64,000 nt of DNA. Source: Aquabacterium sp. OR-4 (GTDB lineage Bacteria; Pseudomonadota; Gammaproteobacteria; Burkholderiales; Burkholderiaceae_C). Below the pieces are notes generated by a model. The model saw only the letters and a program-made list of their open reading frames with translations, ran no database searches and was not told where the DNA came from. Made by a program: the position numbers and the translations under genes. Below are positions 12,193 to 64,000 of this stretch, one piece after another (position 1 is the first letter of the stretch; every line of letters starts with the position of its first letter). The stretch is from the NCBI RefSeq assembly GCF_025290835.2, contig NZ_JAOCQD020000001.1, positions 2,604,001 through 2,668,000 on the forward strand. Direction: 5' to 3'.

Positions 12193-14301
12193 TCACCAGC
12201 GGTGCTGCCAGCGCGCCGACAACAACAGCGCGCGCGGCACACCGGGCTCGAAGAAGCGGCCATTGCCGTCGTTGACGATCACGCTGCCCACGTAGCGGCG
12301 GTCGAACAGGTTGTCGACGCGGGCCAGCAGCTCCAGCGCATCGGTGGGGCCCAGCGCCAGCGAGTGCGACCAGCGCAGGTGGGCCAGCGCATGGCCCGGG
12401 GCGTACACCGTGTTGGCGTCGTTGGCGGCCATGCGGCCCATGGCGCGCCACTCGAGCGCCAGCTCGCCCGGCAGCAGGCCGGGCCGCCAGGCCGCCTCGG
12501 CCCAGGCGCTGGCACCCACCGTGCCCGAGATGCGGTTGCCGGCCACCGCGCTGCCGATGCTGTGGCGGTACTCGGCCTCCAGCCAGCTGGCCGAGGCCTG
12601 CAGGCGCAGGCCGGGCATCACGCGCCAGGCGCCCGACAGCTCGGCGCCGTGGCGGCGCGTGGCGCCGACGTTCTGGAACACCGAGCGGCCGCCGGTGTTG
12701 CTGAGCACGCCGATCTCGTTGTCGGTGCTGGCCGAGAACAGCGCCAGCTCGGCCGACGCGGCCGCGCCGAGCCACTTGCTGCCCAGCTCGAACTGCCGGC
12801 TGGTCTGGCCGGCCAGCTGGCGGTTGAAGCCGCCGCCGGTCTGGGTGCTGGGCGCATAGGCCAGCTCGCCCAGCGTGGGCGACTCGAAGCCGCGCGCGGC
12901 GCTGGCATGCAGCGCCCAGCCCGGCATCAGCGTCCAGCGCAGGCCGGCCACCGGGTTGGTGTAGCGGTAGCGCAGCTCGCCGGAATCGTTGCCGTTGGCC
13001 AGGAACTCGTCGTCGGTGCGCATCGTCACCTCGCCGCTGCGCAGGCCGCCGGTAAAGGCCAGCGACGTGCCCAGCGGCCACAGCAGCTGGGCATAGGCCT
13101 CGCGGGAATCGGCGTGGTTGACCTCCTTGCGCCGCTGCTCGCCGACCACGCCCTTGGCGGTGGGCGCGGTGGCCGGGCCGGTGTAGTTGCGGTGGCCGCG
13201 GCGGTCGTCGCGCTGACCCTCGGCGGTGACGCCGGTGACCAGATCGCCGCCGCCCAGCTGCCACTCGAGCTTGGCATCCAGGCCCTGGTAGGTGCGGTCG
13301 AAGTCAACCACGCCGCCGCCGTGGGTGGCGCTGGTCTGCACCGAGGCCGGAATGGCCTGCCAGCCGGTGACGCCGCGCGAGCCGGCGTAAGCCGTGAGCG
13401 ACGAGGCGCGCAGCACGCCGCCCTCGGCAAACGCGTGGCGCCAGTTCACCCCCAGCTGGGTCTGGCGGATGGTCTTGCGGGTGTTGTACTCCAGCGCCTG
13501 GGGCGTGGTCGACCGCGCATCCAGCGCAAACTGGCCGGGCGACAGGCCCAGCGGGTCTTGCGCCCGCTGGTCGTGGTTGGAGACCAGCAGCACCACGCTG
13601 TCGCGCTCGCCGCGCCAGCCCAGGCGCACATTGGCCAGCTGGCGGTCGGCCGCGCTCTGCGGTCGAAAGCCATCCAGCTCGGCGCGCGTGATGCTGGCGC
13701 GCAGATCGAAGCCGCTGCCCAGCGGCGTGGCCAGGCCCAGGCGCAGCTGGTGCAGGCCGAAGCTGCCCAGGTCGACCCCGACCTCGCTTTGCGCCGCGCG
13801 CACCGGCGCGGAGAACACCGCCACCACACCACCCGAGCTGTTGCCGTACAGCACCGAGAACGGCCCGCGCAGCACCTCGATGCGCTCGGCGCCCGACAGG
13901 TCGAAGTGCGCCACCTGGCCCTGACCGTCGGGCATGGTGGCCGGAATGCCATCGGTGTAGAGCCGCAGGCCACGCACGCCGAAGGCGGCACGCGCGCCGA
14001 AGCCGCGCGAGCTCATCTGCAGATCCTGCGCGTAGTTGCTGCGGTTGTTGACCACCAGGCCCGGCACGCGCGCCAGCGCCTCCGACAAATTGATCATCGG
14101 CCCGGCATCGCGCAGCGCCGCGGCATCGACGGCCGTGATGGCATAGGGCGTGTCGAGCAGGCGCTGCACGCGCGGCGAGCCGGTGATCACCACCGTGTCG
14201 GCCACGGCATCGCCCGCGGCCTGGGCCAGCACGGCAGTGGGCAGCCCGGCCAGGCCACAGGCCAGCGCAACGGGGGCAAGACGGAATCGAAGAGAAATCA
14301 T
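12193..14301 (-). CDS. TonB-dependent outer membrane receptor
   Basis: This 702-residue outer membrane protein begins with a signal peptide (M-I-S-L-R-F-R-L...V-L-A-Q-A). The plug domain has a TonB-box-like D-T-V-V-I-T-G near its start and the motifs I-E-V-L-R-G-P-F-S-V-L-Y-G-N-S-S-G-G-V. A 22-strand barrel follows, ending in an aromatic residue (R-W-Q-H-R-W). It should import a scarce metal chelate or other large ligand using TonB energy. It is the first gene of the minus-strand set leading to the SoxYZ-like carrier, the metallo-hydrolase and the PQQ dehydrogenase. Because that dehydrogenase carries a lanthanide-type motif, import of a rare-earth chelate is an attractive but unproven role. 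I saw no cobalamin riboswitch upstream. Confidence 0.88.
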   Translation of the reverse strand: MISLRFRLAPVALACGLAGLPTAVLAQAAGDAVADTVVITGSPRVQRLLDTPYAITAVDAAALRDAGPMINLSEALARVPGLVVNNRSNYAQDLQMSSRGFGARAAFGVRGLRLYTDGIPATMPDGQGQVAHFDLSGAERIEVLRGPFSVLYGNSSGGVVAVFSAPVRAAQSEVGVDLGSFGLHQLRLGLATPLGSGFDLRASITRAELDGFRPQSAADRQLANVRLGWRGERDSVVLLVSNHDQRAQDPLGLSPGQFALDARSTTPQALEYNTRKTIRQTQLGVNWRHAFAEGGVLRASSLTAYAGSRGVTGWQAIPASVQTSATHGGGVVDFDRTYQGLDAKLEWQLGGGDLVTGVTAEGQRDDRRGHRNYTGPATAPTAKGVVGEQRRKEVNHADSREAYAQLLWPLGTSLAFTGGLRSGEVTMRTDDEFLANGNDSGELRYRYTNPVAGLRWTLMPGWALHASAARGFESPTLGELAYAPSTQTGGGFNRQLAGQTSRQFELGSKWLGAAASAELALFSASTDNEIGVLSNTGGRSVFQNVGATRRHGAELSGAWRVMPGLRLQASASWLEAEYRHSIGSAVAGNRISGTVGASAWAEAAWRPGLLPGELALEWRAMGRMAANDANTVYAPGHALAHLRWSHSLALGPTDALELLARVDNLFDRRYVGSVIVNDGNGRFFEPGVPRALLLSARWQHRW

Positions 14302-14644
14302 GGAACGCAGCAGGGAGCAGGTGAACACGCAAACGGCACTGCGCCACGCGGATACGTGGACGGCCAGGGCCGCACTGTCGCTGTGCCACGGTGGCGTCAC
14401 CAACCCGGCATTTACCCGGGCGCTGCTGCAAATCGGATCAACCCGGATGCGCATTTGGTATCGTGTCGCCAAGTGGCACGACAAGCCGCATGTCAGGGAT
14501 TGGAATCACGATGTATCGAATGCCGCTTTTCCGGCCGATGCCCCAGCTGCGGCCACGCCACAGTGCGGGGCGTGCAGCTGGCGAGCCCACAGGCCCGCCG
14601 ACCCGGTGCCCAGCCACGCGCCGCGCAGTGAACGGATCAGTGCC
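14302..14644. promoter_or_regulatory. Divergent intergenic region between TonB receptor and NarL-type regulator
   Basis: These 343 bp hold no supported gene. The region is less GC-biased than its flanks around 14420-14530 and contains the palindrome ATGCGCAT (14447-14454). It must carry promoters for the receptor (minus) and possibly the regulator (plus), but I could not fix a convincing -35/-10 pair. A sigma-54-like TGGCACG at 14474 lacks a correctly spaced -12 element. Confidence 0.4.
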
Positions 14645-15277
14645 ATGACCCGGATCTATCTTGTCGACGACCAGGCCATCTTGCGCGATGGCCTGCAGGC
14701 GCTGCTCGAATCGGCCGGCCATGAGGTCGTGGGCACGGCCAGCGAGCCAACCCAGGCTGTTGCAGAAGCACAACAGCGCCAGGCGCAGGTGATGCTGCTC
14801 GACCTGGGCCTGGGCGAGCGCTCGGGTTTCGAGGTGCTGCACGAGCTGCGGCGCCGCGACGCCACGGTGCGCGCCGTGGTGCTGACCATGTCGGAGCAGC
14901 CACGCCATGTGGCCGAGGCCGTGCGCCTGGGCGCCTCGGGCTATGTGCTCAAGGATGCCGGCGCCGCCGAGCTGCTGCAGGCCATCGACGCGGTGGCCGC
15001 CGGCCGCCGCTTCTTCGGCCCGCAGGTGGCCGACCTGGCCTTGCAGGCACTCACCGCCCCCACCACCGACGACGCGTTTGCCACGCTGTCACCACGCGAG
15101 CGCCAGATCATCACGATGGTGGTCAACGGCCTGTCCAGCGCCGCCATCGGCGTGCAGCTGCACCTCTCGCCCAAGACCGTGGACACCTACCGCAGCCGCA
15201 TCATGGCCAAGCTGGGCGTGCACGGCGTGACCGGCCTGGTACGCCTGGCGGTGCGCGAGGGGTTGGTGGAAAAGTAG
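14645..15277 (+). CDS. NarL/FixJ family response regulator
   Basis: This 210-residue two-component regulator has an N-terminal receiver with acidic D8-D9, phosphoacceptor D53 (V-M-L-L-D-L-G-L), Thr/Ser switch region L-T-M-S and Lys105-region L-K-D. A LuxR-type DNA-binding domain follows (L-S-P-R-E-R-Q-I-I...L-H-L-S-P-K-T-V-D-T-Y-R). The ATG at 14645 begins the receiver directly. It lies beside the TonB receptor and quinoprotein genes, and the hybrid kinase at 5116 lies on their other side. It may therefore control the cluster, as LuxR-type regulators (ErbR/ExaE/AgmR) do for quinoprotein dehydrogenases in pseudomonads. That link is by position only. Confidence 0.9.
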   Translation: MTRIYLVDDQAILRDGLQALLESAGHEVVGTASEPTQAVAEAQQRQAQVMLLDLGLGERSGFEVLHELRRRDATVRAVVLTMSEQPRHVAEAVRLGASGYVLKDAGAAELLQAIDAVAAGRRFFGPQVADLALQALTAPTTDDAFATLSPRERQIITMVVNGLSSAAIGVQLHLSPKTVDTYRSRIMAKLGVHGVTGLVRLAVREGLVEK

Positions 15278-15384
15278 CTGGGGCACCCGGCGCCGCGGGT
15301 ACGCGGCGCCACCCGCCGGGCGGGTGCGCGGGCCTGCTTGGGAGCGGCCCGGCGCTGGCCCGCGGATGGGGCACCCGGCGCCGC
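15278..15384. repeat. Dispersed covarying-hairpin repeat, copy A
   Basis: This element starts directly after the TAG of the NarL-type regulator and fills the gap to the convergent SenA-like gene. It contains the perfect 9-bp hairpin GGCGCCGCG-GGTA-CGCGGCGCC (15289-15310). A second near-palindrome, ACCCGCCGGGCGGGT, and the block GGGAGCGGCCCGGCGCT follow. The opening TGGGGCACCCGGCGCCGC recurs near 15367. Copies B (21220) and C (63430) share the layout. Confidence 0.8.
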
Positions 15385-15393
15385 ACGCTGCGC

Positions 15394-16632
15394 TCAGAGC
15401 GCGCAGCTGCGAAACCCGCAGAACAGCTCGTCGGCGGCGGCCGGCACAAAGCGGCGGGCGCGGGCGTGGCGCAGGCGCGGGCTGGCCAGCAGGGTGGCGC
15501 CGCGCAGCACGCGCTGGCCTGGCAGCACCTGCAGTGCGGCCGGTGCGCCGGGCCAGGCACGGGCGCTGCCGGCCGTCCACTCGAGCACCTCGCCCCACAC
15601 AAAGCCGCGCTGCGTGGCACGCGCTGCGGCCAGCTCCCATTCGGGCTCGGTGGGCAGGCGGCGGCCGGCCCAGCGACACCAGGCCTCGGCCTCGTGGGCG
15701 CTGACATGCAGCACCGGCTGTGCACCGGGCACGCGCTGCATGCGGCCCTGGCGGCGCGCCAGCACGCCACCGGTGACCTGCTCGACATAGCGCGGGGCGC
15801 GGCGGGTGGTGGCCTCCAGCCACTCCCAGCCCTCGTGGCCCCACCAGCGGCGCTGGTCGTAGCCGCCATCGTCGATGAACTCGGCATAGGCGGCCCAGCC
15901 CACCGGCTGGGCATCGATCTCGAACTCGGGCACGCTCAGCTCGTGCGCCCAGCACTCGTTGTCGGGCACGTAGCCACCGCGCGCCGAGCCCAGCTGCATG
16001 CGCTGGCCGGGCATGCCGATGGCGTCGCGCCGCGTGCGGGCCGGCAGCTCGGGCAGCCAGCCGGCCTGCTGCGGCCCGTTCAGGCGGTCAGGGCCCAGGT
16101 CGAGCGCCTGGGCCAGCACCGCCAGCGTCTCGCCCACCGCGTCTTCGTGCAACAAGGCCATGCGAAACACGTGCAGGGCGGCATCGTCCACGGGCCCGGG
16201 GCCGAGCTTGTCCAGCAGCTCGAGCGTGGCCTCCAGCGTGCTGCCCAGGTAGCGGCGCAGCGCCTCGGCGCCGGGCAGCGCGTCCTGCCAGCGCTCGGCG
16301 CGGGTCAGCGACTGGGGATCGAACCAGGCATCGGCACAGGGCTCGGTCGAAGCCAGGCGCAGGCCCGCCGGATCGGCCGCCGCACCGCGGCCGCGCTGCA
16401 CGTGGCGGGCGATCCAGTATTCCTGGTACCAGGCGGCATGGCCCACCCACCACAGCGGCGGGTCGAAGTCGTCGAAGGGCACCCGAAAGCTCAGGTCCTC
16501 GAAGGCCGCCAGCCAGCCCAGCGTGCGGCTGCGGGCGTCCATCAGCGCCAGCGACAGCAGGTCGGCGCCGGCCTGGCGCATGGCCTGGGCGTCGTGCACC
16601 GCCGGGTTGATCAGCGAGGTGCCGGTGGACAT
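15394..16632 (-). CDS. EgtB/SenA-like non-heme iron enzyme with a missing iron ligand
   Basis: This 412-residue protein has an N-terminal DinB-like domain and a C-terminal FGE-sulfatase domain (E-W-T...V-L-R-G...G-F-R-S-C-A-L). That is the layout of EgtB and of selenoneine synthase SenA, which join a sulfur or selenium donor to trimethyl-histidine using iron and oxygen. The start of the protein and the G-H-A-A-W-Y-Q-E-Y-W block (H65) fit the SenA branch best. The iron motif normally read as H-x-x-x-H-x-E is H162-E-D-A-V166-G-E168, so one His ligand is Val. The senB and senC partners are not seen nearby. The gene lies 57 bp downstream of dxs on the same strand. The SenA assignment is moderate and activity is doubtful. 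Confidence 0.7.
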   Translation of the reverse strand: MSTGTSLINPAVHDAQAMRQAGADLLSLALMDARSRTLGWLAAFEDLSFRVPFDDFDPPLWWVGHAAWYQEYWIARHVQRGRGAAADPAGLRLASTEPCADAWFDPQSLTRAERWQDALPGAEALRRYLGSTLEATLELLDKLGPGPVDDAALHVFRMALLHEDAVGETLAVLAQALDLGPDRLNGPQQAGWLPELPARTRRDAIGMPGQRMQLGSARGGYVPDNECWAHELSVPEFEIDAQPVGWAAYAEFIDDGGYDQRRWWGHEGWEWLEATTRRAPRYVEQVTGGVLARRQGRMQRVPGAQPVLHVSAHEAEAWCRWAGRRLPTEPEWELAAARATQRGFVWGEVLEWTAGSARAWPGAPAALQVLPGQRVLRGATLLASPRLRHARARRFVPAAADELFCGFRSCAL

Positions 16633-16689
16633 GGTGGGCGCCGGGCCTTCGCTGCGGGGGTGCTGACGATGGCCCGGTGCACCGGCCGG

Positions 16690-18618
16690 TCAGTCGTTGA
16701 CCGCCGGCCGCGCCACCAGCGACAAGGCCGGCCCGAAGCGCTTGCGCACCGCCGCCTCGATGCCCGCGGCATCCAGCCCGCACAGCGCCAGCAGCCGCGC
16801 CGGATCGCCATGCTCGATGAACTCGTCGGGCAGGCCCAGGTGCAGCAGCGGCACGCTGATGCCGGCGGCGGCCAGCGCCTCGCCCACGGCACTGCCGGCA
16901 CCACCGGCGATGCAGCCTTCCTCGATCGTCACCAGCGCGTCGTGGCTTCGTGCCAGGCTGCACAGCAGCTCGGTGTCGAGCGGCTTGGCAAAGCGCATGT
17001 TGGCCACGCTGGCATCCAGCGCCTCGGCCGCGGCCAGCGCCGGGTGCAGCAGCGTGCCGAAGGCCAGGATGGCGATGCGCCGTGCCGCCACGCCACCCGC
17101 CCCCTGCGGCAGGCTGCTGTTGCGGCGCATTTCGCCCCGGCCCCAGGGCAGTTCGGCCAGGCCGGGCTCGATGGCGCGACCGATGCCGGCGCCGCGCGGA
17201 TAGCGCACCGCGGTCGGGTGATCGCGCCGGTAGGCGGTGGTCAGCGCTTTGCGGCATTCGTCCTCGTCGGACGGGGTGAGCACGGCCATGTTCGGCACAC
17301 AGCGCAGGAAGGCGATGTCGTAGGCGCCGGCATGCGTGGCGCCGTCGGCGCCCACCAGGCCGGCGCGGTCGAGCGCCAACATCACCGGCAGGTTCTGCAG
17401 CGCCACATCGTGGATCAGCTGGTCGTAGCCGCGCTGCAGAAAGGTGGAGTAGATCGCCAGCACCGGCTTGAAGCCCTCGCAGGCCAGGCCGCCGGCAAAG
17501 GTGACGGCATGCTGCTCGGCAATGCCCACGTCGTGGTAGCGCTTGGGAAAGCGCTGCTCGAACTCGACCATGCCCGAGCCCTCACGCATGGCGGGCGTGA
17601 TGCCCACCAGGCGGGGGTCGGCCGCGGCCATGTCGCACAGCCACTGGCCGAACACCTGGGTGAAGGTGGTCTTGGGCGGCGCGCTGGGCTTGGTCAGGCC
17701 CACGCTGGGGTCGAACTTGCCCGGGCCGTGGTAGTTGATCGGGTCGGCTTCGGCCAGCTTGTAGCCGTAGCCCTTCTTGGTGACCACGTGCAGGAACTGC
17801 GGGCCGCGCTTGTCGCGCAGGTTCTCCAACGTGGGAATCAGCGCGTCGAGGTCATGGCCGTCGATCGGGCCCACATAGGTGAAGCCCAGCTCCTCGAAGA
17901 TGGTGCCGGGCACCACCATGCCCTTGGTGTGCTCCTCGAAGCGGCGCGCAAACTCGTACAGCGGCGTGTTCTTGAGCACGCTCTTGGCGCCCTCGCGCGC
18001 GGCGCTGTAGAAATTGCCGCTCATCAGGCGTGCCAGGTGCTTGTTCAGCGCACCCACCGGCGGGCTGATCGACATGTCGTTGTCGTTGAGCACCACCAGC
18101 ATGTCGGCCGGGCCCACGCCATGCGGCGATCCGCCGTGGTTCATGGCCTCGAAGGCCATGCCGCCGGTCAGCGCGCCATCGCCGATCACCGCCACCACAT
18201 GGCGGCGCTCGCCCTTCAGCTTGGCGGCGTGGGCCATGCCCAGCGCGGCCGAGATGCTGGTGCTGGAATGGCCGGTGCCGAAGGTGTCGTAGTCGCTCTC
18301 GGCGCGGCGCGGAAAGCCGCTGATGCCGCCCATCTGCTTGAGCGTGGCCATGGCCTCGCGCCGGCCGGTGAGGATCTTGTGCGGATAGGTCTGGTGGCCC
18401 ACGTCCCACACCAGGCGGTCGTGCGGCGTGTCGAACACATAGTGCAGCGCGATGGTGAGCTCCACCGTGCCGAGGTTGGACGACAGATGGCCGCCGGTCT
18501 TGGCCACGCTTTCGAGCAGATAGGCCCGCAGCTCCTGCGCCAGCGTGCGCAGCTGCGGCCGCGACAGGCGGCGCAGCTCGGCCGGGGTGGAAATGGTGTG
18601 CAGCAGCGAATAAGGCAT
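16690..18618 (-). CDS. dxs: 1-deoxy-D-xylulose-5-phosphate synthase
   Basis: This 642-residue thiamine-diphosphate enzyme condenses pyruvate and glyceraldehyde 3-phosphate, the first step of the MEP isoprenoid pathway. Clear family blocks are [13 protein letters not shown], the [15 protein letters not shown] loop, and the ThDP/Mg motif [15 protein letters not shown]. The transketolase-like [15 protein letters not shown] block and the C-terminal domain are also clear. Its length is normal for Dxs. The start at 18618 gives M-P-Y-S-L-L-H-T-I. It follows ispA after 25 bp on the same strand in the conserved xseB-ispA-dxs order, so prenyl-diphosphate supply is co-expressed. Confidence 0.97.
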
Positions 18619-18643
18619 GGGCGTGAACTCCAGAAGCCGCGGC

Positions 18644-19549
18644 TCAGCAGTCGCGGTCGACGACCATGTCGGCCAGCTGGCGCAGATCGCCGATCTCGGT
18701 GAGGCCGCTGCGCGACAGCGCATCCACGGCAGCCGCATGCAGTGCATGCGCCTGGCGGCGGGCCTCGTCGAGGCCCAGCACGGTGACATAGGTCGGCTTG
18801 TTGGCGTCGAGGTCCTTGCCGGCGGTCTTGCCCAGGGTCTCGGAAGCCTGGGTCACGTCGAGGATGTCGTCGACCACCTGGAAGGCCAGGCCCAGCGCCG
18901 CCCCGAAATCGGACAACGCCGCCCAGGCCGTGGCGTCGCAGGGGCCGGTGGCGGCCCCCATCAGCACGCTGGCCTGCAGCAGCGCGCCGGTCTTGCGGCG
19001 GTGCATGTTGCGCAGCGCCGCCTCGTCGAGTGGCTTGCCGGTGGCCGCCAGGTCGATGGCCTGGCCACCGGCCATGCCGGCGTGGCCCGCGGAACGCGCC
19101 AGCAGCGCCACCAGGCGGGCCTGCAGCGCCGGCGGCAGGCCGGGCTCGGCATCGGGCGTCAGCACCTCGAAGGCCAGGGCCTGCATGGCATCTCCGGCCA
19201 GCATGGCCGTGGCCTCGCCGAACTGCACATGCACGGTGGGCTTGCCGCGGCGCAGCACGTCGTTGTCCATGCAGGGCATGTCGTCGTGCACCAGCGAGTA
19301 GGCGTGGATCAGCTCCACCGCCACGGCGGCACGCATGGCGGCAGCGCAATGGCCTTGCACCGCCTCGGCGGCGGCGCAGACCAGCAGCGGGCGCAGGCGC
19401 TTGCCGCCGTCGAGCACGCCGTAGCGCATGGCCGCGCCCAGGCCCGCCGGCGCGTCGGCAGGCACCCAGGCGCCGAGCGCCTGCTCCACCTGCACCAGCT
19501 GCTCGCGCACCCAGGCCTCGAAGCGCTCGCCAGACAGCACGGCGCTCAC
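18644..19549 (-). CDS. ispA: (2E,6E)-farnesyl diphosphate synthase
   Basis: This 301-residue all-alpha prenyltransferase elongates DMAPP/GPP with IPP to farnesyl diphosphate. The two aspartate-rich motifs are visible: D-D-M-P-C-M-D (FARM) and D-D-I-L-D-V-T (SARM). So is the G-G-K-R-L-R-P-L substrate loop. I choose GTG 19549 because GAGGG stands exactly 7 nt upstream and the length equals that of known IspA proteins. An in-frame GTG at 19615 overlaps xseB, but its extra 22 residues would be translated from a dispersed repeat (19547-19610). The gene sits between xseB and dxs in the usual order. Confidence 0.93.
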
Positions 19550-19610
19550 TGCACCACCCTCTGCGCCGTGCGCTGCGGGATTCGCGCTGGGGAACGGCCC
19601 GGCGGGCTCA
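19547..19610 (-). repeat. Stop-to-start intercistronic repeat, copy 1
   Basis: Read on the minus strand, this 64-bp segment begins with the TGA of xseB and ends with the GTG of ispA. It matches 62947-63009 at about 58 of 64 aligned positions. The shared core includes CCGTTCCCCAGCGCGAATCC and a GAGGG placed seven bases before GTG. It therefore spans an entire intercistronic junction, including the ribosome site. Confidence 0.8.
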
Positions 19611-19841
19611 TGCACCGGTCCACTCGGTCAGCTGGCCGTCTTCCAGCACCTTGACCTGCGACTCCACCGCCTGCAGGCGCTCGCGGCACAGGGCCAGCAG
19701 CGCGCTGCCGCGCTGGTAGTGGCCCAGCAGGCCGTCCAGCGGCAGCTGCCCGCCTTCCATGGCCTGCACCAGGCGCTCGAGTTCGGCCAGCGCGTCTTCG
19801 TAACGGTCGGGCAGGTCAGGCGCGGATGCGGTGGCGGTCAT
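19608..19841 (-). CDS. xseB: Exodeoxyribonuclease VII small subunit
   Basis: This 77-residue helical protein has the family pattern [26 protein letters not shown] followed by [13 protein letters not shown]. It is the small subunit that, in several copies, activates XseA to degrade single-stranded DNA to short oligonucleotides. The ATG at 19841 yields the standard length. It is the first gene of the xseB-ispA-dxs operon, and its stop codon begins the repeat that leads into ispA. Confidence 0.95.
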
Positions 19842-19931
19842 GGGGGCGGCAGGTCTGGGCAATCCGCGATTTTAGTCGCGCCGCCGAGGGGCCCCGTCCA
19901 GCGGCCGGACAGGCCAATCCACCCGGCGGGC

Positions 19932-19937
19932 TACAAT
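19932..19937 (+). promoter_or_regulatory. Putative -10 element (TACAAT) of the Rieske oxygenase gene
   Basis: The hexamer TACAAT lies 118 bp before the ATG at 20056, in the divergent gap after xseB. It resembles a housekeeping sigma-70 -10 box. The -35 region is poor, so the call rests mainly on the -10 and on the structured leader that begins just downstream. Confidence 0.4.
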
Positions 19938-19943
19938 GCGGCC

Positions 19944-20055
19944 TCGACGGTCACCCGCGTTTCGCGAGGTGGCCGTTTTCATCATCGACAGTCCCATCCC
20001 GCGGGGCCACCGGGTGGGGGGTTTTTGACATCCTTTTTGGGAGATCCTGGGGATC
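19944..20055 (+). promoter_or_regulatory. Structured mRNA leader with three successive hairpins before the Rieske gene
   Basis: Hairpin 1 (19949-19974) pairs GGTCACC-CGCG with CGCG-A-GGTGGCC and is followed by GUUUU. Hairpin 2 pairs CCCATCC (19993-19999) with GGGTGGG (20012-20018) and is followed by a U5 run (20022-20026). Hairpin 3, GATCC-TGG-GGATC (20043-20055), touches the start codon. The first two look like intrinsic terminators placed inside the leader, which suggests attenuation. The ribosome site GGAG is at 20040-20043. Confidence 0.55.
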
Positions 20056-21219
20056 ATGTCGGACCTGAGCGCCAGTCTCGAAGCTCTTGCGCGCAACCAG
20101 CACCGTGTCGACGACCGGTCCGCGCGCTCGCAACTCTCCGTCACCACCTATTTCTCGGACGATCTGTTTCGTCGCGAGATGGAGCTGATCTACCAGCACG
20201 GCCCGCGCTACCTGGGGCATGAGCTGGCGGTGCCCGAGGTGGGTGATTTCTACGCCCTGCCGCAAGAAGGCGAAGGCCGTGCGCTGGTGCGCACGCCGCA
20301 GGGCGTGGAGCTGATCTCGAACGTCTGCCGGCACCGCCAGGCGGTGATGCTGCGCGGGCGGGGCAACACCCGGACCAATGGCGGCGGCGGCAACATCGTG
20401 TGCCCGCTGCACCGCTGGACCTACGATCTGCAGGGCCAGCTGCTGGGCGCACCGCTGTTCGACCACGACCCCTGCCTGAACCTCAACCGCTACCGCACGC
20501 GCAGCTGGAACGGCATGGTGTTCGAGGACAACGGCCGCGACATCGGCGCCGAGCTGGGCCAGGTGGGCCCGCGCGCCGACCTCGACTTCTCGGGCTATGT
20601 GCTCGACAAGGTGCACATCCACGAGTGCGACTACAACTGGAAGACCTTCATCGAGGTCTACCTCGAGGACTACCACGTCGGGCCCTTTCACCCGGGGCTG
20701 GGCCGCTTCGTCACCTGCGACGACCTGCGCTGGGAGTTCAGCCCGCACCACTCGGTGCAGACCGTGGGCATCAACGACTCGCTGCGCCAGGCCGGCTCGC
20801 CGGCCTACAAGCGCTGGCACGAGGCGGTGCTGGCGCTGGGCAACGGCGCGCCGCCCAAGCAGGGCGCGATCTGGCTGACCTACTACCCGAACATCATGGT
20901 CGAGTGGTATCCGCATGTGCTGGTGGTCTCGACGCTGTACCCCAAGGGGCCGCAGAAGACGCTGAACATGGTGGAGTTCTACTACCCCGAGGAGATCGCC
21001 GCCTTCGAGCGCGAGTTCATCGAGGCCGAGCAGAACGCCTACATGGAAACCTGCGTCGAGGACGACGAGATAGCGCTGCGCATGGACGCTGGCCGCCGTG
21101 CGCTGATGGAACGCGGCGACGATGAAGCCGGCCCGTACCAGAGCCCGATGGAAGACGGCATGCGCCACTTCCACGAGTGGTACCGGCGCGTGATGGGCAT
21201 CGGCCGCGCCCCCTGGTGA
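20056..21219 (+). CDS. Rieske-type aromatic ring-hydroxylating oxygenase, alpha subunit
   Basis: This 387-residue iron oxygenase has a Rieske 2Fe-2S site at C91-x-H93 and C116-x2-H119 (C-P-L-H-R-W). The C-terminal catalytic domain carries mononuclear iron ligands H207 and H212, with bridging D205 in E-D-Y-H-V-G-P-F-H-P-G-L. Such proteins use electrons from a separate reductase to insert oxygen into an aromatic or other substrate. No reductase or beta subunit is adjacent. It is transcribed alone, with a hairpin-rich leader, and convergent with the MarR gene of the aromatic cluster. The substrate is unknown. Proximity to aromatic acid catabolism is suggestive only. Confidence 0.88.
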   Translation: MSDLSASLEALARNQHRVDDRSARSQLSVTTYFSDDLFRREMELIYQHGPRYLGHELAVPEVGDFYALPQEGEGRALVRTPQGVELISNVCRHRQAVMLRGRGNTRTNGGGGNIVCPLHRWTYDLQGQLLGAPLFDHDPCLNLNRYRTRSWNGMVFEDNGRDIGAELGQVGPRADLDFSGYVLDKVHIHECDYNWKTFIEVYLEDYHVGPFHPGLGRFVTCDDLRWEFSPHHSVQTVGINDSLRQAGSPAYKRWHEAVLALGNGAPPKQGAIWLTYYPNIMVEWYPHVLVVSTLYPKGPQKTLNMVEFYYPEEIAAFEREFIEAEQNAYMETCVEDDEIALRMDAGRRALMERGDDEAGPYQSPMEDGMRHFHEWYRRVMGIGRAPW

Positions 21220-21335
21220 CCGGAGCCCCCGGCTTGCCGGGTACGGCAAGCCACCCCCGTGGCCCCGTGAGGGGCCGCTTCGCAGCCCTGGGGTAGCGCG
21301 GCCGCTTCGGAGCGGCCGGGCGCTGCCCGCGCTTC
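21220..21335. repeat. Dispersed covarying-hairpin repeat, copy B
   Basis: The element starts right after the TGA of the Rieske gene, between it and the convergent MarR gene. It contains the perfect hairpin GGCTTGCCG-GGTA-CGGCAAGCC (21231-21252). A second hairpin, GGCCCC-GTGA-GGGGCC, and the block GGAGCGGCCGGGCGCT follow. The stem differs from copies A and C at most positions, but pairing is perfect. Confidence 0.75.
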
Positions 21336-21375
21336 CCTTCGACGAGGTCGTTCCCTTCGATGGGGATCGCTACGT

Positions 21376-21828
21376 TCAGCGAGCTGCTACCTTTCGCAGG
21401 AGCTCGATCAGCATCAGCCGCTCGGCACGGGTGAGCCGGCTGTCGAGTTCGCGCTCCATCGGCACGGCAGCGGTGGCGCCGGCCTCGGCCACGCGCTGAC
21501 CTTCCGGCGTGAGCACCACGTTGTGGCTGCGGCGGTCGGCCTCGCTGCGCTCGCGGCGGATCAGCTCGCGCTGCTGCAGGCGGTCGAGCAGCAGCGTCAG
21601 GTTGGGCGCCGACAGCGCCAGTGCCTGGCCCAGGCGCTTGGGCGGCAGCGGCCCGTTGGCCAGCAGCAGCAGCAGCAGCGAGTACTCCACCTTGCGCAGG
21701 TTCAGCGGCTCGCCGACATGGCGGTAGAAGGTGTCCATGGTGGTCACCGTGGCGGTGGCCAGGTGAAAGCCCAGCACCTCCTCGAGTGCGCCCAGCGACA
21801 GCGCCTGGCCGGCGGTTCGCGTGGCCAT
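21376..21828 (-). CDS. MarR family transcriptional regulator
   Basis: This 150-residue winged-helix repressor has helices around L-A-T-A-T-V-T-T-M-D and the DNA-recognition region L-G-Q-A-L-A-L-S-A-P-N-L-T-L-L-L-D-R-L. The MarR wing R-R-E-R-S-E-A-D-R-R-S follows. It is the last gene of the minus-strand aromatic cluster, and its ATG overlaps the acyl-CoA dehydrogenase stop by one base (TGATG). MarR proteins in hydroxycinnamate clusters (CouR, FerC, PhdR) bind the CoA thioester and release DNA, so the same role is likely here. Its candidate operators are in the divergent region at 32724-32897, by inference. Confidence 0.9.
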   Translation of the reverse strand: MATRTAGQALSLGALEEVLGFHLATATVTTMDTFYRHVGEPLNLRKVEYSLLLLLLANGPLPPKRLGQALALSAPNLTLLLDRLQQRELIRRERSEADRRSHNVVLTPEGQRVAEAGATAAVPMERELDSRLTRAERLMLIELLRKVAAR

Positions 21829-23630
21829 CAGACGGCCACCCGCGCCAGGTGCGGCAGCACCGCGCCGCGCCGGCCCACACGCGCCCAGTGCACCTGGGCC
21901 TGCGGCAGCAGCCAGTCGATGCCGTGGCGGGCGGCGTCCAGCCAATCCTGCGCGCTGCGGCCGCCGGGGGCCGGCGCACGCGCCGGGTTGGCGCTGCAGC
22001 GGGCAATGCGCGCCCAGGCCCAGGCCAGCAAGGCATGGCCCACGCCGGCCAGCATGTCATCGGCCACGCGCAGCGGGTATTCGGCATCGCCATCGCGGCC
22101 GGTCAGCAGCGCGGCCAGGGCCTGGCGCCAGGCGTCGAGCTGCGCGTCCAGCGCCTCGGCAAAGGGCTGCAGCGCGGCATCGGTGCGGCACAACACGGCC
22201 TCGGCGGCCAGCTCGTCGATCAGGACGCCGGCGCGCTGGCCCCCGTCGTCGAGCAGCTTGCGCAGCACCAGGTCGATGGCCTGGATCTCGTTGGTGCCCT
22301 CGTAGATCATGGCGATGCGGCTGTCGCGCACCGTCTGCTCGATGCCGTACTCGGCCACGAAGCCATAGCCGCCCCAGGCCTGCAGGGCGTCGTCGGCGCC
22401 GCGGTGGCCCAGCTCGGTGAAGAAGGCCTTGGCCACCGGGGTGAGGATGGCCACCTGGCCAGCCGCTGCGGCGCGGCGCGTGGCATCGGGGTGCTGCGCG
22501 GCCTCGTCGAGCAGCATGGCGCAGCGCAGGGCCACCACGCGGGCGGCATCCGTGCGCGCGCGCAGGCCCAGCAGCAGGCGGCGCATGGCCGGGTGCCAGG
22601 CGATGGGGTCGCCGCCCTGCTCCGGGCTGGCGCCTGGCGGCTGCGACGGCGCGCGCATCTGCACCCGCCCGGCCGCATAGCGCCAGGCGTTCTGCGTGGC
22701 GGCCTCCAGGTGGCCCAGGCCCTGCATGGCCACATGCAGGCGGGCCGAGTTCATCATCCTGAACATGGCGGCCAGGCCGCGGTGCGGCTCGCCGATCAGC
22801 CAGCCCTCGGCCTGCTCAAAGCGCATCTGGCAGGTGGCGCTGCCATGGATGCCCATCTTGTGCTCGATGCCGTCGCAATGCACCGCGTTGCGCTGTCCGT
22901 CCGGCAGGATCTTCGGCACCAGCGCCAGCGACAGGCCCTTGCTGCCCGCGCCGGCACCGGGCAGGCGGCACAGCACCAGGTGCACGATGTTGTCGCTGAG
23001 GTCGTGCTCGCCGCCGCTGATGAAGACCTTGCTGCCGCTGATGCGCAGCGGCGCGCCGTTGGCGGCAGGCTGGCCAGCCACCAGCTCGGCGCGGGTGCGC
23101 ACCTGGCCCAGGTCGCTGCCGGCCTGCGGCTCGGTCAGGCACATGGTGGCCAGCCATTGGCCGCTCACCAGCGGCGCCAGGTAGCGCGCGCGCAGCTCGG
23201 GCACGGCGTCGTGGCGCACCACCTCGCAGGCGCCGTGCAGCAGGCCGGGGTACATGGTCCAGCCATGGTTGGCGGCCGCGATCATCTCGTTGAGCGGCAT
23301 GTTCAGGGCCGCGGGCAGGCCCTGACCGCCGTCCTCGGGCGCGGCGGCCAGCGCCGGCCAGCCGCCCTGCACATAGGCGGCCCAGGCCTCGCGAAAGCCC
23401 GGCGGCGTGACCACGCCCTGGGGCGACCAGCGGCAACCCACGCGGTCGCCGCCGGCATTCAAAGGCGCCAGCACCTGCGAGGCAAAGCGGCCGGCTTCGC
23501 TCAGCACCTGGGCGGCGGTGTCGGCATCCAGCTCGGCATGGGCGGGCAGCGTGGCCCACTGGGCCGGCGCATCGAGCACCTGCACCAGCACATGCAGCAT
23601 GTCGGCCACCGGGGCCTGGTAGGTCCACAT
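21828..23630 (-). CDS. Acyl-CoA dehydrogenase (long form)
   Basis: This 600-residue flavoenzyme has N-terminal, middle (C-L-T-E-P-Q-A-G-S-D-L-G) and C-terminal dehydrogenase domains plus a DmdC/FadE-like C-terminal extension. The catalytic base is the Glu in M-I-Y-E-G-T-N-E-I-Q-A. It should introduce an alpha-beta double bond into an acyl-CoA, passing electrons to ETF. Within this cluster a likely substrate is a dihydrocinnamoyl-type or other phenylpropanoyl-CoA feeding the crotonase step. It lies 150 bp after livF and overlaps marR. The start M-W-T-Y-Q-A-P at 23630 is typical of this family. Confidence 0.93.
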   Translation of the reverse strand: MWTYQAPVADMLHVLVQVLDAPAQWATLPAHAELDADTAAQVLSEAGRFASQVLAPLNAGGDRVGCRWSPQGVVTPPGFREAWAAYVQGGWPALAAAPEDGGQGLPAALNMPLNEMIAAANHGWTMYPGLLHGACEVVRHDAVPELRARYLAPLVSGQWLATMCLTEPQAGSDLGQVRTRAELVAGQPAANGAPLRISGSKVFISGGEHDLSDNIVHLVLCRLPGAGAGSKGLSLALVPKILPDGQRNAVHCDGIEHKMGIHGSATCQMRFEQAEGWLIGEPHRGLAAMFRMMNSARLHVAMQGLGHLEAATQNAWRYAAGRVQMRAPSQPPGASPEQGGDPIAWHPAMRRLLLGLRARTDAARVVALRCAMLLDEAAQHPDATRRAAAAGQVAILTPVAKAFFTELGHRGADDALQAWGGYGFVAEYGIEQTVRDSRIAMIYEGTNEIQAIDLVLRKLLDDGGQRAGVLIDELAAEAVLCRTDAALQPFAEALDAQLDAWRQALAALLTGRDGDAEYPLRVADDMLAGVGHALLAWAWARIARCSANPARAPAPGGRSAQDWLDAARHGIDWLLPQAQVHWARVGRRGAVLPHLARVAV

Positions 23631-39878: not shown

Positions 39879-42295
39879 GCGGCCCGGCTGGCGGCCGCAC
39901 ACGCCGATCGCCCCCCTGGCTGCTGGTCATCGGCCTGGGCCTGGTGCTGGCCTTTGCCGGCATCGCCTTCGTGCAGTACCGCCAGGTGATGCTGCTGTCC
40001 AGCCAGGTGCGCTACGAGGGCGACAACCTGGTCTGGAGCTTCTTCCAGCTTGAAAGCGAGTACCTGCTGCTGCGCGACCACCTGCGCGACAGCCGGCGCT
40101 ACCCCGAGCGCGACAACAGCGAGGCGCTGCGCTTTCGCTACGAGCTGTTCGCCAGCCGCCTGCCGCTGGTCGACCCCGAGCGCACCCGCGCCATCGTCGA
40201 GATCGGCGCCGAGCACGAGCGCACCATCGCCGCCTTGCGGGCCTTTGTCACGCGGCACGATCCGCTGCTGTCGGAGCAGGCCCGCAGCCGGCTCGAGCCG
40301 GCGCAGGTGCGCGCCATCCTGGCCGAGTTCGACCCGCTGTACGACCCGATCCACGATCTCACGCTGCTGGCCAACCAGATCGTGGCCGCGCAGATCGCCC
40401 GCCGCAACGACGCGGTGCGCGCGCAAAGCCGCGTGGCCATCGGGCTGACGCTGTTCCAGAGCCTGCTGACCCTGGCCTTTGCGATGCTCACGGCGCGCCA
40501 GTCGGCCGCGCTGCGCCGCCGCCGCAGCGAGCTCGAGCAGCTGGCCGAGCGCCTGCAGCAGGCGCGGCTGGAGGCCGAGAGCGCCAGCCAGGCCAAGAGC
40601 GCCTTCCTGGCCAACATGAGCCACGAGCTGCGCACCCCGTTCAACGGCATGCTGGGCATGCTGGCGGTGCTGGAGCGCAGCCCGCTCAGCCCCGAGCAGG
40701 CCGAGCAGCTGCGCACCGCGCGCGAATCGGCCACCCACCTGCTGGAGCTGCTGAACGACATCCTCGACATCTCCAAGCTCGAATCCGGCCGGCTCGACGT
40801 GCACCCCGAGCCCCTGGCGCTGGCCCGCCTGCTGGAAGAAGTGCGCGTGCCGATGGCCGCCGCCGCCGATGCCCGCGGCCTGCGGCTGAGCGTGGCCGTG
40901 GCCGACGACGTGCCCGCCGCTGTGCTGGCCGACGGCAAGCGGCTCAAGCAGATCCTGTTCAACCTGCTGGCCAATGCGGTGAAGTTCACCGACCAGGGCC
41001 AGGTCTCGCTGCAGGTGCGCTGCGATGCCGGCGCGCCCCCTGCGCCAGGCCTGCAGGCGCTGAGCTTTGCGGTCAGCGACACCGGCGTGGGCATCGACGA
41101 CGCGCTGAAGGCGCGGCTGTTCCAGCGCTTTGGCCAGGGCGATACCGGCACCGCGCGGCGCTACGGCGGCACCGGCCTGGGGCTGGAGATCTCGCGCAAC
41201 CTGGCGCGGCGCATGGGGGGCGACATCGCCGTGCGCAGCCAGCCCGGCGAAGGCTCGACCTTCACGCTGCAGCTGGCCCTGCCACCTTGCCCGCCCCCGG
41301 TGGCCGAGGCGCCCGCCAGCGCCGGCGCCGCCGCGCTGCAGGCGGCCCCCCACACCGGCCGGCTGCGCCTACTGGTGGCCGACGATCACCCGGTCAACCG
41401 CCGCGTGATGGCGCTGCTGCTCGAACGCATGGGCCACGAGGTGCTGCTGGCCGCCGACGGCGTGCAGGCGCTGGCCAGCGTGCAGAGCGAGCAGCCAGAC
41501 CTGGTGTTCATGGACCTGCACATGCCGGTGCGTGACGGCCTGGAAACCACCCGCGCGCTGCGCCTGCTGCCGCCGCCGGCCGGCCAGGTGCCGGTGGTGG
41601 CGCTCACCGCCGATGCCTTTGCCGAGACCCGCGAGCTGGCGCTGGCCGCCGGCATGGACCACTTCCTGTCCAAGCCGGTGCGGCCCGAGGACATCGAGGC
41701 GCTGCTGGCCCAGCGTTTCGGCCTGCCCCCTGCCCGCCCGGACGACACCCCGTCTTGCGGGGCTTCGGCGCCGCCAGCCAGGGTGGATACTGGGCCTGGC
41801 GCCGAGGCCCCGGCCCTGGCGCCGCCCCCCGCCGCAGAACCGATTGCCGCCGCCGTGTGCCCTGCCGCCCCATCCCCTGACGCACCGTCACCTGCCAGCG
41901 CCGCGCCGCCCAGCCCGGCACGGCGCCGCTTTCGCGCTGCCGACGTGGCGGCGCACCTCGACATGGCCATCATCGGCGAGGTCTGCGTGGGCGTCTCGCT
42001 GGCCGGCTACCGCAGCGTGCTCGGCGGCTTTTTCGCCGACGAATCGGGCAGCCAGGCGGCACTGCTGGCCGCGCTCGACGCCGGCCAGGCCGATCGCCTG
42101 CGTGCGCCGGCCCATGCCATCAAGGGCAGCGCCGCCAGCCTGGGCCTGCGCGCGCTGCACGACACCGTGCGCGAGGCCGAGCAGCAGGGCGCCGGCTGGA
42201 GCGCCGAGCGCTGCACCACCACCGCGGCCGCGCTGCGCGAGCAGCTGCTGGTGGCCCGCGGCCTGCTGGCGCGCATGGGCTTCATCGAGGGCTGA
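39875..42295 (+). CDS. Hybrid sensor histidine kinase with receiver and Hpt domains
   Basis: This 806-residue kinase has one membrane helix at ~12-32, a periplasmic four-helix-type sensor region to ~185, a second helix and a short coiled coil. HisKA has H250 in S-H-E-L-R-T-P-F-N. HATPase ([16 protein letters not shown]) and a receiver with D547 (V-F-M-D-L-H-M-P) follow. A Pro/Ala linker precedes a C-terminal Hpt domain with H747 ([12 protein letters not shown]). It thus contains a full phosphorelay except the output regulator. GTG 39875 is fixed by the four-base overlap with the preceding exported protein. No output regulator is adjacent. Confidence 0.9.
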
Positions 42296-56421: not shown

Positions 56422-56482
56422 GGCCCGCGCAAGCGGGCCTTTGTGTTTCTGGGGCCCGCGCAAGCAGACCTTTGTGTTTCTA
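56422..56482 (+). terminator. Tandem rpsT terminator repeats, copies 1 and 2
   Basis: Copy 1 pairs GGCCCGC-GCAA-GCGGGCC (56422-56439) and is followed by TTTGTGTTTC, an intrinsic terminator with a GNRA loop. Copy 2 starts 31 bp later and is identical except for two bases that break the stem (GCAGACC instead of GCGGGCC). The IS element interrupts the array at the TA 56481-56482. Confidence 0.75.
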
Positions 56483-57660
56483 GTGCAGTGCGCCGCTCTG
56501 TTCTGTACTTATTCCGGTGCGGTGACCAGGGCGGCCTTGGCCCGGGTCACCTTGGCCAGGATGTCGGTCGCGCGGGCCGTCCAGATGAACGGCTTGGGAT
56601 CGATGTTGTGATGGGCCACGTACAGGTCGATGGCCAGCTCCAGTTCGGCAACGCTGGCGAAGCTGTCACGCCGGATGCGCTTGTCGGTGATGTCGCGGAA
56701 GAAGCGTTCGACCATGTTCAGCCACGAAGCGCTGGTCGGCGTGAAGTGCATGACGAACCGCGGATGACGCGCCAGCCATTTCTGCACCTCGGGGTGGCTG
56801 TGGGTGGCGTAGTTGTCCACGATCAGGTGAAGGCCCAGGTGCTTGGGCGTGCGGCGGTCGATCAGCCGCAAGAACTTCAGCCACTCGGTATGCCGGTGGC
56901 GCGGCTGGCACATCGAGATCACCTTGCCGTCCACCGTGTTGAGCGCGGCAAACAGCGTGGTCGTGCCGTGGCGCTTGTAGTCGTGGGTCACGGTGCCGGC
57001 ACGCCCGCGCTTCATCGGCAGACCCGGCTGTGTACGGTTGAGCGCCTGGATCTGGCTCTTCTCGTCGCAGCTGAGCACCAGGGCGTGCTCGGGCGGGTTC
57101 ATGTACAGGCCGACGACGTCGAGCAACTTGTCCTCGAACCGTGGATCACGCGAGAGCTTGAACGTGCGGCTCAGGTGCGGCTTCAGGCCGTTGCTCTGCC
57201 AAACCCGACGCACGGTGGTGGCTCCCACACCCAGGTGCGCGGCCAAGGTGCGGGTGCTCCAGTGCGTGGCGTCGACCGGCTTGTCGTGCAGCGTGGCCTG
57301 CACGATGCGCGACTCCATCTCAGCGGTGATCGTGGCCGGACGGCCGCTGCGTGGGGCGTCCTTGCGCAGCGCGTCGATGCCACCGCTGAGGAAGCGCTCG
57401 CGCCACATGGCGACCTGGCGCCGATCCAGTCCTGCATCGACAGCGATGTCCTTGTTCTGCCGGCCCTCGGCGGCCAGCAGCACGACCAGCGCACGCTGCT
57501 GCAACCGGGCCTCCACCGTTCGGCGCTTGGCCAGCACACGGAGCTCGCGCTCGGTGTCTGCGTCCAGTTCAATCGTCTTGGCAACCCGCACTGTTCCAGC
57601 CTCCTGGAACGTCTGAGTATGCCGGCGCAAATAAGTTCTATAAATTCACGCGCACTACAC
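56483..57660 (-). mobile_element. IS630-family insertion sequence
   Basis: The 1178-bp element is flanked by TA at 56481-56482 and 57661-57662, as expected for IS630 family transposition. The outer ends are inverted repeats, GTGCAGTGCGC on the left and GTGTAGTGCGC on the right. Partial similarity continues to a shared ACTTATT about 25 bp in. It encodes one transposase. It sits in the tandem terminator array between rpsT and the DUF3579 gene, where it disrupts no gene. Confidence 0.9.
56509..57591 (-). CDS. IS630 family transposase
   Basis: This 360-residue transposase has an N-terminal helix-turn-helix region (N-K-D-I-A-V-D-A-G-L-D-R-R-Q-V-A-M-W) and a DDE catalytic domain. The acidic triad reads D176 (L-S-C-D-E-K-S), D259 (L-I-V-D-N-Y-A-T-H) and E295 (W-L-N-M-V-E-R-F-F), with the last two ~35 residues apart as in IS630. 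GTG 57591 is chosen because AGGAGG stands eight bases upstream; a TTG at 57630 is less likely. The frame is intact, so the element may be active. Confidence 0.92.
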   Translation of the reverse strand: MRVAKTIELDADTERELRVLAKRRTVEARLQQRALVVLLAAEGRQNKDIAVDAGLDRRQVAMWRERFLSGGIDALRKDAPRSGRPATITAEMESRIVQATLHDKPVDATHWSTRTLAAHLGVGATTVRRVWQSNGLKPHLSRTFKLSRDPRFEDKLLDVVGLYMNPPEHALVLSCDEKSQIQALNRTQPGLPMKRGRAGTVTHDYKRHGTTTLFAALNTVDGKVISMCQPRHRHTEWLKFLRLIDRRTPKHLGLHLIVDNYATHSHPEVQKWLARHPRFVMHFTPTSASWLNMVERFFRDITDKRIRRDSFASVAELELAIDLYVAHHNIDPKPFIWTARATDILAKVTRAKAALVTAPE

Positions 57661-57663
57661 TAG

Positions 57664-57717
57664 GGCCCGCGCAAGCAGACCTTTGTGTTTCTGGGGCCCG
57701 CTTGCGCGGGCCTCGGT
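57664..57717. terminator. Tandem terminator repeats, copies 3 and 4
   Basis: Copy 3 (from 57664) is identical to the stem-broken copy 2 on the other side of the IS. Copy 4 starts exactly 31 bp later, has the loop reversed (GGCCCGC-TTGC-GCGGGCC, 57695-57712) and so presents the GCAA loop on the minus strand. It probably terminates the minus-strand DUF3579 transcript. Confidence 0.65.
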
Positions 57718-57739
57718 GTTGGCAGGGCGACCGCCCGGC

Positions 57740-63429: not shown

Positions 63430-63536
63430 GCTGGGGCACCCGGCCTCACGCGTACGTGAGGCCACCCGCCGGGCGGGTTGGCGGGCCGGCTTGGGAGCGG
63501 CCCGGCGCTCGGCCCGCTGGGGCACCCGGCCCGGCG
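63430..63536. repeat. Dispersed covarying-hairpin repeat, copy C
   Basis: The element begins directly after the TGA of the YkgJ gene and fills the gap to the convergent regulator gene. The hairpin is GGCCTCACG-CGTA-CGTGAGGCC (63442-63463), a perfect 9-bp stem. It shares with copy A the opening CTGGGGCACCCGG, the following ACCCGCCGGGCGGGT, the block TTGGGAGCGGCCCGGCGCT and the terminal recurrence of TGGGGCACCCGGC. Confidence 0.8.
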
Positions 63537-63540
63537 AGTT

Positions 63541-64000
63541 TCAGCCGGCTGGGGTGGCGCGCTGGATGATGCGGCTGACCGCCAGCACCGCCTGGGTGCG
63601 CGAGTTGACTTCCAGCGCGCGCAGCACCGCGGCCACATGGTCCTTGACCGTTTCGACCGAGAGGTTCAGCTCGCGCGCGATCAGCTTGTTGGGCAGGCCC
63701 TTGAGCAGCAGCGCCAGCACCTCGGTCTGGCGCGGCGTGAGGCCCAGGGCGTCCAGGCCATCGGGCCGCCGCGGCACCAGCCCCGAGGCCGCCAGCGCGG
63801 CCAGCGCGGTGGTGGGCGTGGCCGGCGCCACGGCGGCGGCGGCAGGCCCTGCCGTGGTGGTGGCGGTGGCGGCAACGGCTGCCACGGCGGTGTGGCCGGC
63901 GGCGCGCCGCGCAGCCTCGGCCGCATCGGCCGCCGCCAGCTGGGCACGCGCGGCGGTGATGGTGGTGTCGCCCAGGTCGCCACGGCCCTGCATGCGGGCG
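63541..64000 (-). CDS. NarL/FixJ-type response regulator, C-terminal part (continues beyond window)
   Basis: The frame is open to the right edge, so the N-terminal part is outside. What is visible is an unusually long Ala/Thr-rich linker (about 60 residues, A-V-A-A-T-A-T-T-T-A-G) followed by a LuxR-type helix-turn-helix. The latter reads L-T-P-R-Q-T-E-V-L-A-L-L...N-K-L-I-A-R-E-L-N-L-S-V-E-T-V-K-D-H-V. A receiver domain is expected upstream but is not seen. The linker comes partly from GGTGGC-type repeats. Its target genes are unknown. Confidence 0.85.
   Translation of the reverse strand, partial: ARMQGRGDLGDTTITAARAQLAAADAAEAARRAAGHTAVAAVAATATTTAGPAAAAVAPATPTTALAALAASGLVPRRPDGLDALGLTPRQTEVLALLLKGLPNKLIARELNLSVETVKDHVAAVLRALEVNSRTQAVLAVSRIIQRATPAG

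Follow-up and report, generated by a model that had tools for sequence, protein, structure and literature searches.

In the window, by which we mean the whole 64-kb stretch of Aquabacterium sp. OR-4 DNA that was analysed, our own gene calls recognised nine gaps between convergent genes, and three of these contain a copy of the hairpin-forming sequence studied here. The three, copies A, B, and C, and their neighbouring genes are listed in Table 1. The call for the gene converging on copy C reaches the end of the window, and the part of it searched against Pfam was 63541–63993.

Table 1 Coordinates of copies A, B, and C and of the adjoining genes in the window
Feature	Position	Strand	Remarks
LuxR-type response regulator	14645–15277	+	Stop codon adjoins copy A
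Copy A, full unit, stop-type, type I	15279–15366	+	R1 82.6 bits; begins 1 nt past TAG of upstream gene
Copy A, hairpin H1	15289–15310	+	GGCGCCGCG / loop GGTA / CGCGGCGCC
Copy A, palindrome H2	15311–15325	+	ACCCGCCGGGCGGGT; almost invariant among type I
Copy A, hairpin H3	15328–15363	+	Core GCTTGGGAGCGGCCCGGCGCT at 15336–15356, common to types I and II
Copy A, partial second unit	15367–15384	+	Direct repeat of first 18 nt of unit
FGE-sulfatase domain protein	15394–16632	-	Convergent neighbour of copy A
Rieske ring-hydroxylating oxygenase alpha subunit	20056–21219	+	Stop codon adjoins copy B
Copy B, diverged relative (locus L282)	21221–21334	+	Begins 1 nt past TGA
Copy B, H1	21231–21252	+	Perfect 9-bp stem GGCTTGCCG/CGGCAAGCC, loop GGTA
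Copy B, second hairpin	21259–21278	+	Unlike that of A and C
Copy B, end			H3-like, with GCTTCGGAGCGGCCGGGCGCT
MarR-family regulator	21376–21828	-	Convergent neighbour of copy B
Short ORF, no Pfam match, weak coding score	63142–63429	+	Stop codon adjoins copy C
Copy C, full unit	63432–63517	+	R1 99.6 bits; begins 2 nt past TGA
Copy C, hairpins H1, H2, H3	63442–63463, 63464–63478, 63481–63517	+	
Copy C, partial second unit	63518–63530	+	TGGGGCACCCGGC
LuxR-type (GerE) DNA-binding protein	63541–63999	-	Convergent neighbour of copy C

An initial annotation of this DNA had described A, B, and C as three copies of one repeat, each beginning directly behind a stop codon and each containing a perfect 9-bp stem with a GGTA or CGTA loop. 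The positions and stems were as described: all three copies begin 1–2 nt after a stop codon, and the perfect stem was read in each, with loop GGTA in copy A (GGCGCCGCG/CGCGGCGCC) and in copy B, and loop CGTA in copy C (GGCCTCACG/CGTGAGGCC). The motif TGGGGCACCCGGC is present at both ends of copies A and C, in agreement with the annotation that they open and close with the same motif. With 86% identity across 86 nt, copies A and C belong to one repeat. Copy B has the layout and order of parts common to A and C, and its sequence is only distantly similar; it scored 31.5 bits (E 0.0006) with covariance model R1 in the window and 35.9 bits in the genome search. An unrelated window site at 40628–40687 scored 29.4 bits, near the value for copy B, and this rules out copy B as a close copy of A or C. 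We conclude that copy B is a distant relative, and that the description of one repeat applies to A and C.

Copy number and structure of the unit

A BLAST search with copy A gave 74 matches in its own 6.63-Mb genome. Covariance model R1 was built from 37 units of an alignment (A1) of the best BLAST matches to copy A, and is thus biased to type I; its RNAalifold structure has a different H3 pairing from the long hairpin shown by model R2, which is the favoured one. The scan with R1 scored 150 candidates in the genome and yielded 122 matches at E ≤ 1, in keeping with the initial annotation, which had looked to a scan of the genome and its relatives for many further copies. The core pattern with up to three mismatches occurred 115 times, compared with 14 times for a reversed control; the 13-base terminal motif alone was not significant at two mismatches (11 found, 12.5 expected). 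When 116 of the R1 matches were tabulated, with the six weakest omitted, they fell into 84 clusters, 63 of single units and 21 tandem (12 of two units, 7 of three, and 2 of four). Tandem full units elsewhere in the genome have a period of about 86 bp. One three-unit array is located at contig positions 2677947–2678201, approximately 10 kb past the right end of the window. At locus L235 the last bases of the host gene (GAGGTGAATGG) recur just ahead of the second unit, so the tandem duplication carried some host flank with it.

From 5' to 3' the unit consists of H1, H2, and H3 and is about 86 bp long. Among 47 type I first units, the H1 stem was 9 bp in 39 and 8 bp in 7, with one parsed badly, and the loop was GGTA in 26. 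Type I H2 is ACCCGCC-G-GGCGGGT, and the H3 core, GCTTGGGAGCGGCCCGGCGCT, is almost constant. H1 positions 3 to 7 and 9 vary on both arms. In 28 distinct 9-bp stems, 91.3% of the cells at positions 3–9 were paired; when the right arms were reshuffled 2000 times, the mean was 76.4% and the maximum 82.7%. The covariation noted in the window copies, complete pairing despite differing arms, thus extends to further pairs in the genome. Because the shuffle statistic ignores kinship among copies, and because template-switch correction of quasi-palindromes could yield the same signal, we conclude that H1 pairing shows a conserved hairpin and not necessarily an RNA function. Covariation in H3 was read by eye and left uncounted, for example in L249 (GCTCAGTCG/CGACTGAGC). 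As RNA, copies A and C folded more stably than shuffled sequences on the + strand, with z values of −3.3 (A) and −3.9 (C), and the difference was less clear on the other strand, with −1.7 (A) and −2.1 (C); for copy B the two strands gave −1.8 and −1.7. Eight Roseateles/Pelomonas loci (L097, L104, L105, L106, L127, L157, L162, and L169) have, by eye, an extra stem-forming stretch between H2 and H3, and so the element looks modular. In alignment A3 the row for L335 is at wrong coordinates; this alignment entered no count.

Placement beside stop and start codons

All but the four weakest of the 84 clusters (80 in number) were examined with 5-kb flanks, and genes were called by our own script, which uses an in-frame hexamer model trained on these flanks and no standard caller. 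The 64 loci whose best unit scored at least 44 bits comprised 28 convergent, 16 co-directional sense, 13 co-directional antisense, 1 divergent, and 6 gene-overlapping sites, the last class including at least one probable miscall (L237, where TAG precedes the element). The claim that the repeat lies always between convergent genes is therefore correct for A, B, and C and was rejected for the genome, with only 28 of 64 strong loci convergent. Enrichment in that setting, which had been anticipated, was found without being the rule: 28 of 44 stop-type loci were convergent, compared with 146 of 587 gene 3' ends in flanks of the same genome, which partly overlap (p = 2e-7). In 41 of the 44 stop-type loci no more than 5 nt separated the left end of the element from the stop codon, and in the other three the distance was 7–8 nt; uniform placement in the free gap predicts 17.0, and none of 20000 simulations reached 41. 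All 52 stop-type copies called, including A, B, and C, are in sense orientation, and GTAG is present at some of the stop codons preceding a copy. We conclude that the constant feature is a left end at a gene boundary, rather than a convergent setting.

The second class of copies, start-type or type II, has an H1 and H2 unlike those of type I (GTCAGCCCCTCG...CGATCCCCCGAGGGGAT) and the same H3, and lies antisense between co-directional genes. In 13 of the 14 loci with an antisense left gene, the left end of the element lay within 5 nt of the called start (4.8 expected; none of 20000 simulations reached 13 of 14); among the 13 is one whose overlap with the called start is 26 nt even though CAT adjoins the element, and the fourteenth is the divergent locus L224, where a type II fragment is followed by a type I unit. 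In the source genome 15 copies abut CAT or CAC; AGGGG stands at exactly −10 relative to the start codon in 14 of them, and one (L251) has GAGAGG instead. Ten annotated start-type loci were all operon-like pairs of varied function, with gene names inferred from Pfam matches: two transketolase parts, argS-SPOR, branched-chain permease-ATPase (twice), PRA-PH-HIT, fliP-fliQ, NifZ-DUF3024, IGPD-GATase (hisB-hisH), FBPase-PRK, and two oligopeptide-type ATPases. Among 14 start-type leaders, chosen as copies with CCCCT near the end (which dropped L251), the Shine-Dalgarno sequence folded partly paired (unpaired probability 0.03–0.48). Its pairing partners varied from copy to copy, and thus no common switch is evident.

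The upstream stop codon of start-type loci was part of ATGA in 19 of 32 loci (14 from the source genome and 18 from other genera), compared with 28 of 273 element-free co-directional gaps of 13–200 nt in the source genome (p = 9e-10). The source genome alone gave 8 of 14 (p = 5e-5), measured against the same partly overlapping flanks. In loci of named genera, ATGA was found in 18 of 30 and GTGA in 7 of 30; among 4-nt gene overlaps in the source flanks, 45 of 69 were ATGA. Of the 32 copies, 22 are bordered by a direct repeat, 4 nt or longer, that ends at the element, a count made with no shuffled control, and the longest such repeat, 13 bp including the start codon, is at L381 (G095). Stop-type sites had no clear target-site duplication. 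Of the best 29 R2 loci of the family, 26 were readable and 23 lay between two antisense genes; 16 of the 23 have a called start within 6 nt. In a short form, the element occupies the entire gap of about 62 nt, and its H3 stem includes the upstream stop codon.

Distribution and empty orthologous sites

In the set of relatives, R1 at E ≤ 0.001 detected the element in 17 of 40 genomes including the source: 16 of 20 congeners and none of 19 genomes from other genera. In the family-wide sample, R1 at E ≤ 1e-4 detected it in 40 of 150 genomes including the source (38 of 141 genera) and the start-type model R2 in 46 of 150; many R1 matches outside the genus coincide with R2 matches. Among named genomes, at least 120 stretches contain the exact core. 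The 80 core loci listed were mostly from Rubrivivax, Piscinibacter, Roseateles/Pelomonas, Methylibium, Aquabacterium, Hydrogenophaga, Rhizobacter, and other Burkholderiales; a match in Sphingomonas, inside a called gene, may be due to chance. The 80 loci contain 87 core matches, of which 41 were 53–59 or 35–38 nt from the left gene edge (classes fixed after the loci had been viewed), 44 were at other distances, and 2 were without a left gene; the commonest value was 55 nt. Copy A had no match at E ≤ 1e-3 among plasmids and phages, and a type II query had one among plasmids, in Mitsuaria sp. 7.

Orthologous sites in congeners were then read by eye for presence of the element. At hisB-hisH it was in none of 18 readable congeners (19 congener loci). 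In G009 (locus L299) another hairpin (AGCCCCCACGCTC...CCCCCCGAGGGGGC...) is inserted at that start codon and is likewise bordered by ATG on each side, and similar sequences occur in L115 and L121. At fliP-fliQ, with five paralogous rows left out, the element was in 1 of 18 congener orthologs (G002) and not in the other 17. For argS-SPOR, the source genome has ATGA-element-ATGA; among 15 congeners with a readable junction, 13 have an ATGA overlap, 2 have TGATG, and none has the element, and two more partial loci fell short of the junction. Some operon copies therefore appear, from these sequences, to split overlapping stop and start codons and to leave both genes intact.

For stop-type sites, 22 of 23 rows were read in congener G004, representing 19 loci, some paralogous or of unclear orthology. 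An element was present behind the stop codon at one locus (L225, with a different stem), and there was a possible remnant at L229. Where the convergent gene was plainly the same, G004 was empty at L230 (copy A), L213, L233, and L234; in the last two the stop codons of the convergent genes directly adjoin. In place of the element, L214 in G004 carries a hairpin whose short tail is rich in T. Two sites in all were shared with a congener, L225 with G004 and fliP-fliQ with G002. Apart from these, the clearly orthologous sites that were read, copy A among them, are lineage-specific insertions; the empty congener sites argue for insertion and against an ancestral RNA. Such precise presence and absence at orthologous sites is the mark of a non-autonomous mobile repeat.

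Nature and possible role of the element

The element is probably a non-autonomous interspersed repeat of about 86 bp with three hairpins, which has spread by insertion in Burkholderiales with the same end facing a gene boundary. Direct evidence for this comes from the sequence family, the hairpin pairing, the placement, and the empty sites, the last being the reason for reading the copies as insertions. Movement would be carried out by a recombinase acting in trans; the finding of no transposase or autonomous version counts against this explanation. Stop-type copies would enter in sense orientation just behind a stop codon. Start-type copies would enter an overlapping ATGA stop/start and duplicate those bases, after which the element end with the Shine-Dalgarno sequence (AGGGG at −10) would abut the next start and the upstream stop would stay on the opposite side. 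The duplicated bases are mostly four and equal the stop/start itself, and for that reason selection for both genes could mimic a target-site duplication; six short-form copies (L095, L114, L126, L146, L150, and L166) have a GTG start yet ATGA opposite, which counts against ATGA duplication. We regard as doubtful the fuller proposal that a mobility system inserts the hairpin element specifically at operon ATGA sequences and beside stops, duplicating its target, carrying a ribosome-binding site, spreading without gene breakage, and rewiring translational coupling.

Structured RNAs or terminators that arose and were kept by selection at each site, without moving, and that resemble one another by convergence or gene conversion would account for the compensatory stem pairs, the enrichment between convergent genes, the few U-tract terminators in the same gaps, and the two sites common to a congener. 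This explanation is unlikely, because the sites read in congeners are cleanly empty, the core is almost identical at unrelated loci, and start-type copies sit in operons, where a terminator would harm. A riboswitch-like leader controlling the downstream gene is very improbable: start-type copies do abut the start codon and contain a partly paired Shine-Dalgarno sequence, but its partners vary, the downstream genes of the ten annotated loci are unrelated, many copies are stop-type, the congeners read are without the element at the same sites, and there is no Rfam match.

The remaining alternative is a REP element of the classical kind, moved by a RAYT (Y1/HUH) transposase. As described in PMC2817692 and PMC3733652, REPs are high-copy, palindromic, extragenic sequences that for the most part follow genes and lie in convergent or co-directional gaps; they are palindromes of 20–40 bp tagged with GTAG or CGTC, and those tagged with GTAG show a link to RAYT genes. 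GTAG termini often supply a TAG stop codon (PMC3733652). The element resembles REPs and BIMEs, as these sources portray them, in abundance, palindromy, and an extragenic setting behind genes; placement at stop codons and between convergent genes is likewise described for REPs (PMC3733652), and Y1_Tnp matches were found in 10 of 15 carrier genomes searched. However, its unit is not a single 20–40-bp palindrome but 86 bp with H1, H2, and H3, no constant GTAG or CGTC tag was seen by eye among aligned units, it has a subtype that abuts start codons with its own Shine-Dalgarno sequence, and 5 of the 15 carriers have no Y1_Tnp match. Around the 12 Y1_Tnp loci of the 10 genomes, approximately 1.5 kb on each side, there was no clear copy; the sole R1 match scored 21.3 bits (E 0.033), and R2 had none. 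An association with RAYT is thus ruled out at the tested loci, and we think a RAYT-mobilised REP improbable. Of the readings first offered for the repeat (bidirectional terminator, REP-like mobile unit, or RNA motif), the empty sites favour the mobile unit, without membership in the RAYT-linked REPs, and the terminator is only hinted at.

Two other kinds of repeat were compared by description. Pneumococcal BOX, according to the portion of PMC3049150 consulted, is a composite, tandemly variable unit with a predicted RNA fold, over-represented between convergent genes and thought to be mobilised in trans. The element shares the composite structure with tandem units, the predicted fold, and the excess in convergent gaps; BOX differs in its boxA-boxB-boxC structure with terminal inverted repeats, and that portion describes no fixed abutment to start codons. 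ERIC and Correia MITEs, in the excerpt of PMC10969869 consulted, are small, non-autonomous, and base-paired, as the element is, and can act on transcripts when transcribed; in the element no terminal inverted repeats were seen by eye, and it differs from these MITEs in an insertion edge fixed to the stop or start codon. We recognised no paper describing it among the open-licence papers searched. Because of the longer unit, the missing constant tag, and the absence of clear copies at the tested Y1_Tnp loci, we file it under neither REP nor BOX; we class it as a variant form of small interspersed repeat that works like them.

The element probably acts in RNA as a 3'-end hairpin or an intercistronic spacer. 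Stop-type copies would block the 3' end of the mRNA with a strong hairpin, for termination or protection, and between convergent genes the block would serve both genes; within operons, start-type copies would be spacers that replace tight translational coupling by independent initiation of the second gene. If the insertion reading is right, the element is mobile and widespread and inserts in a way that translation can accommodate: overlapping operon genes are separated, the upstream stop is kept, and the downstream gene receives a new ribosome-binding site. It would also account for many gene-end hairpins in these genera, its mobilising enzyme would be a concrete target to find, and empty and filled sites of one operon in sister species would make the effect of coupling on protein ratios testable.

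A terminator role is only hinted at by the scarcity of U-tract terminators, which were found in 1 of 27 convergent gaps with the element and 8 of 39 without it (gaps of at least 40 nt; p = 0.07, not significant), or in 8 of 52 element-free convergent gaps of any length. Three more core-holding gaps, one with a terminator, were set aside from the count. A G+C-rich hairpin followed by a U tract, the mark of intrinsic terminators, is not characteristic of the copies; the sole terminator-like site in 14000–22500 (15623–15606) is not at a copy. A known Rfam family is ruled out: the window gave no match at gathering cut-offs, and copy A and the start-type copy L263 gave none at E ≤ 1.

Two other repeated sequences were noted. 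The only Y1_Tnp match of the source genome (L031) has AAATGGGGTCAGAGTC and AAATGGGGACAGAGTT motifs alongside, which are unlike the repeat studied here. In the window, a GGCCCGCGCAAGC... hairpin followed by a T-rich stretch is found at 56422–56509 and 57664–57720, on both sides of the gene at 56509–57591; these copies are repeat family D7 and are duplicated terminator-like sequences.
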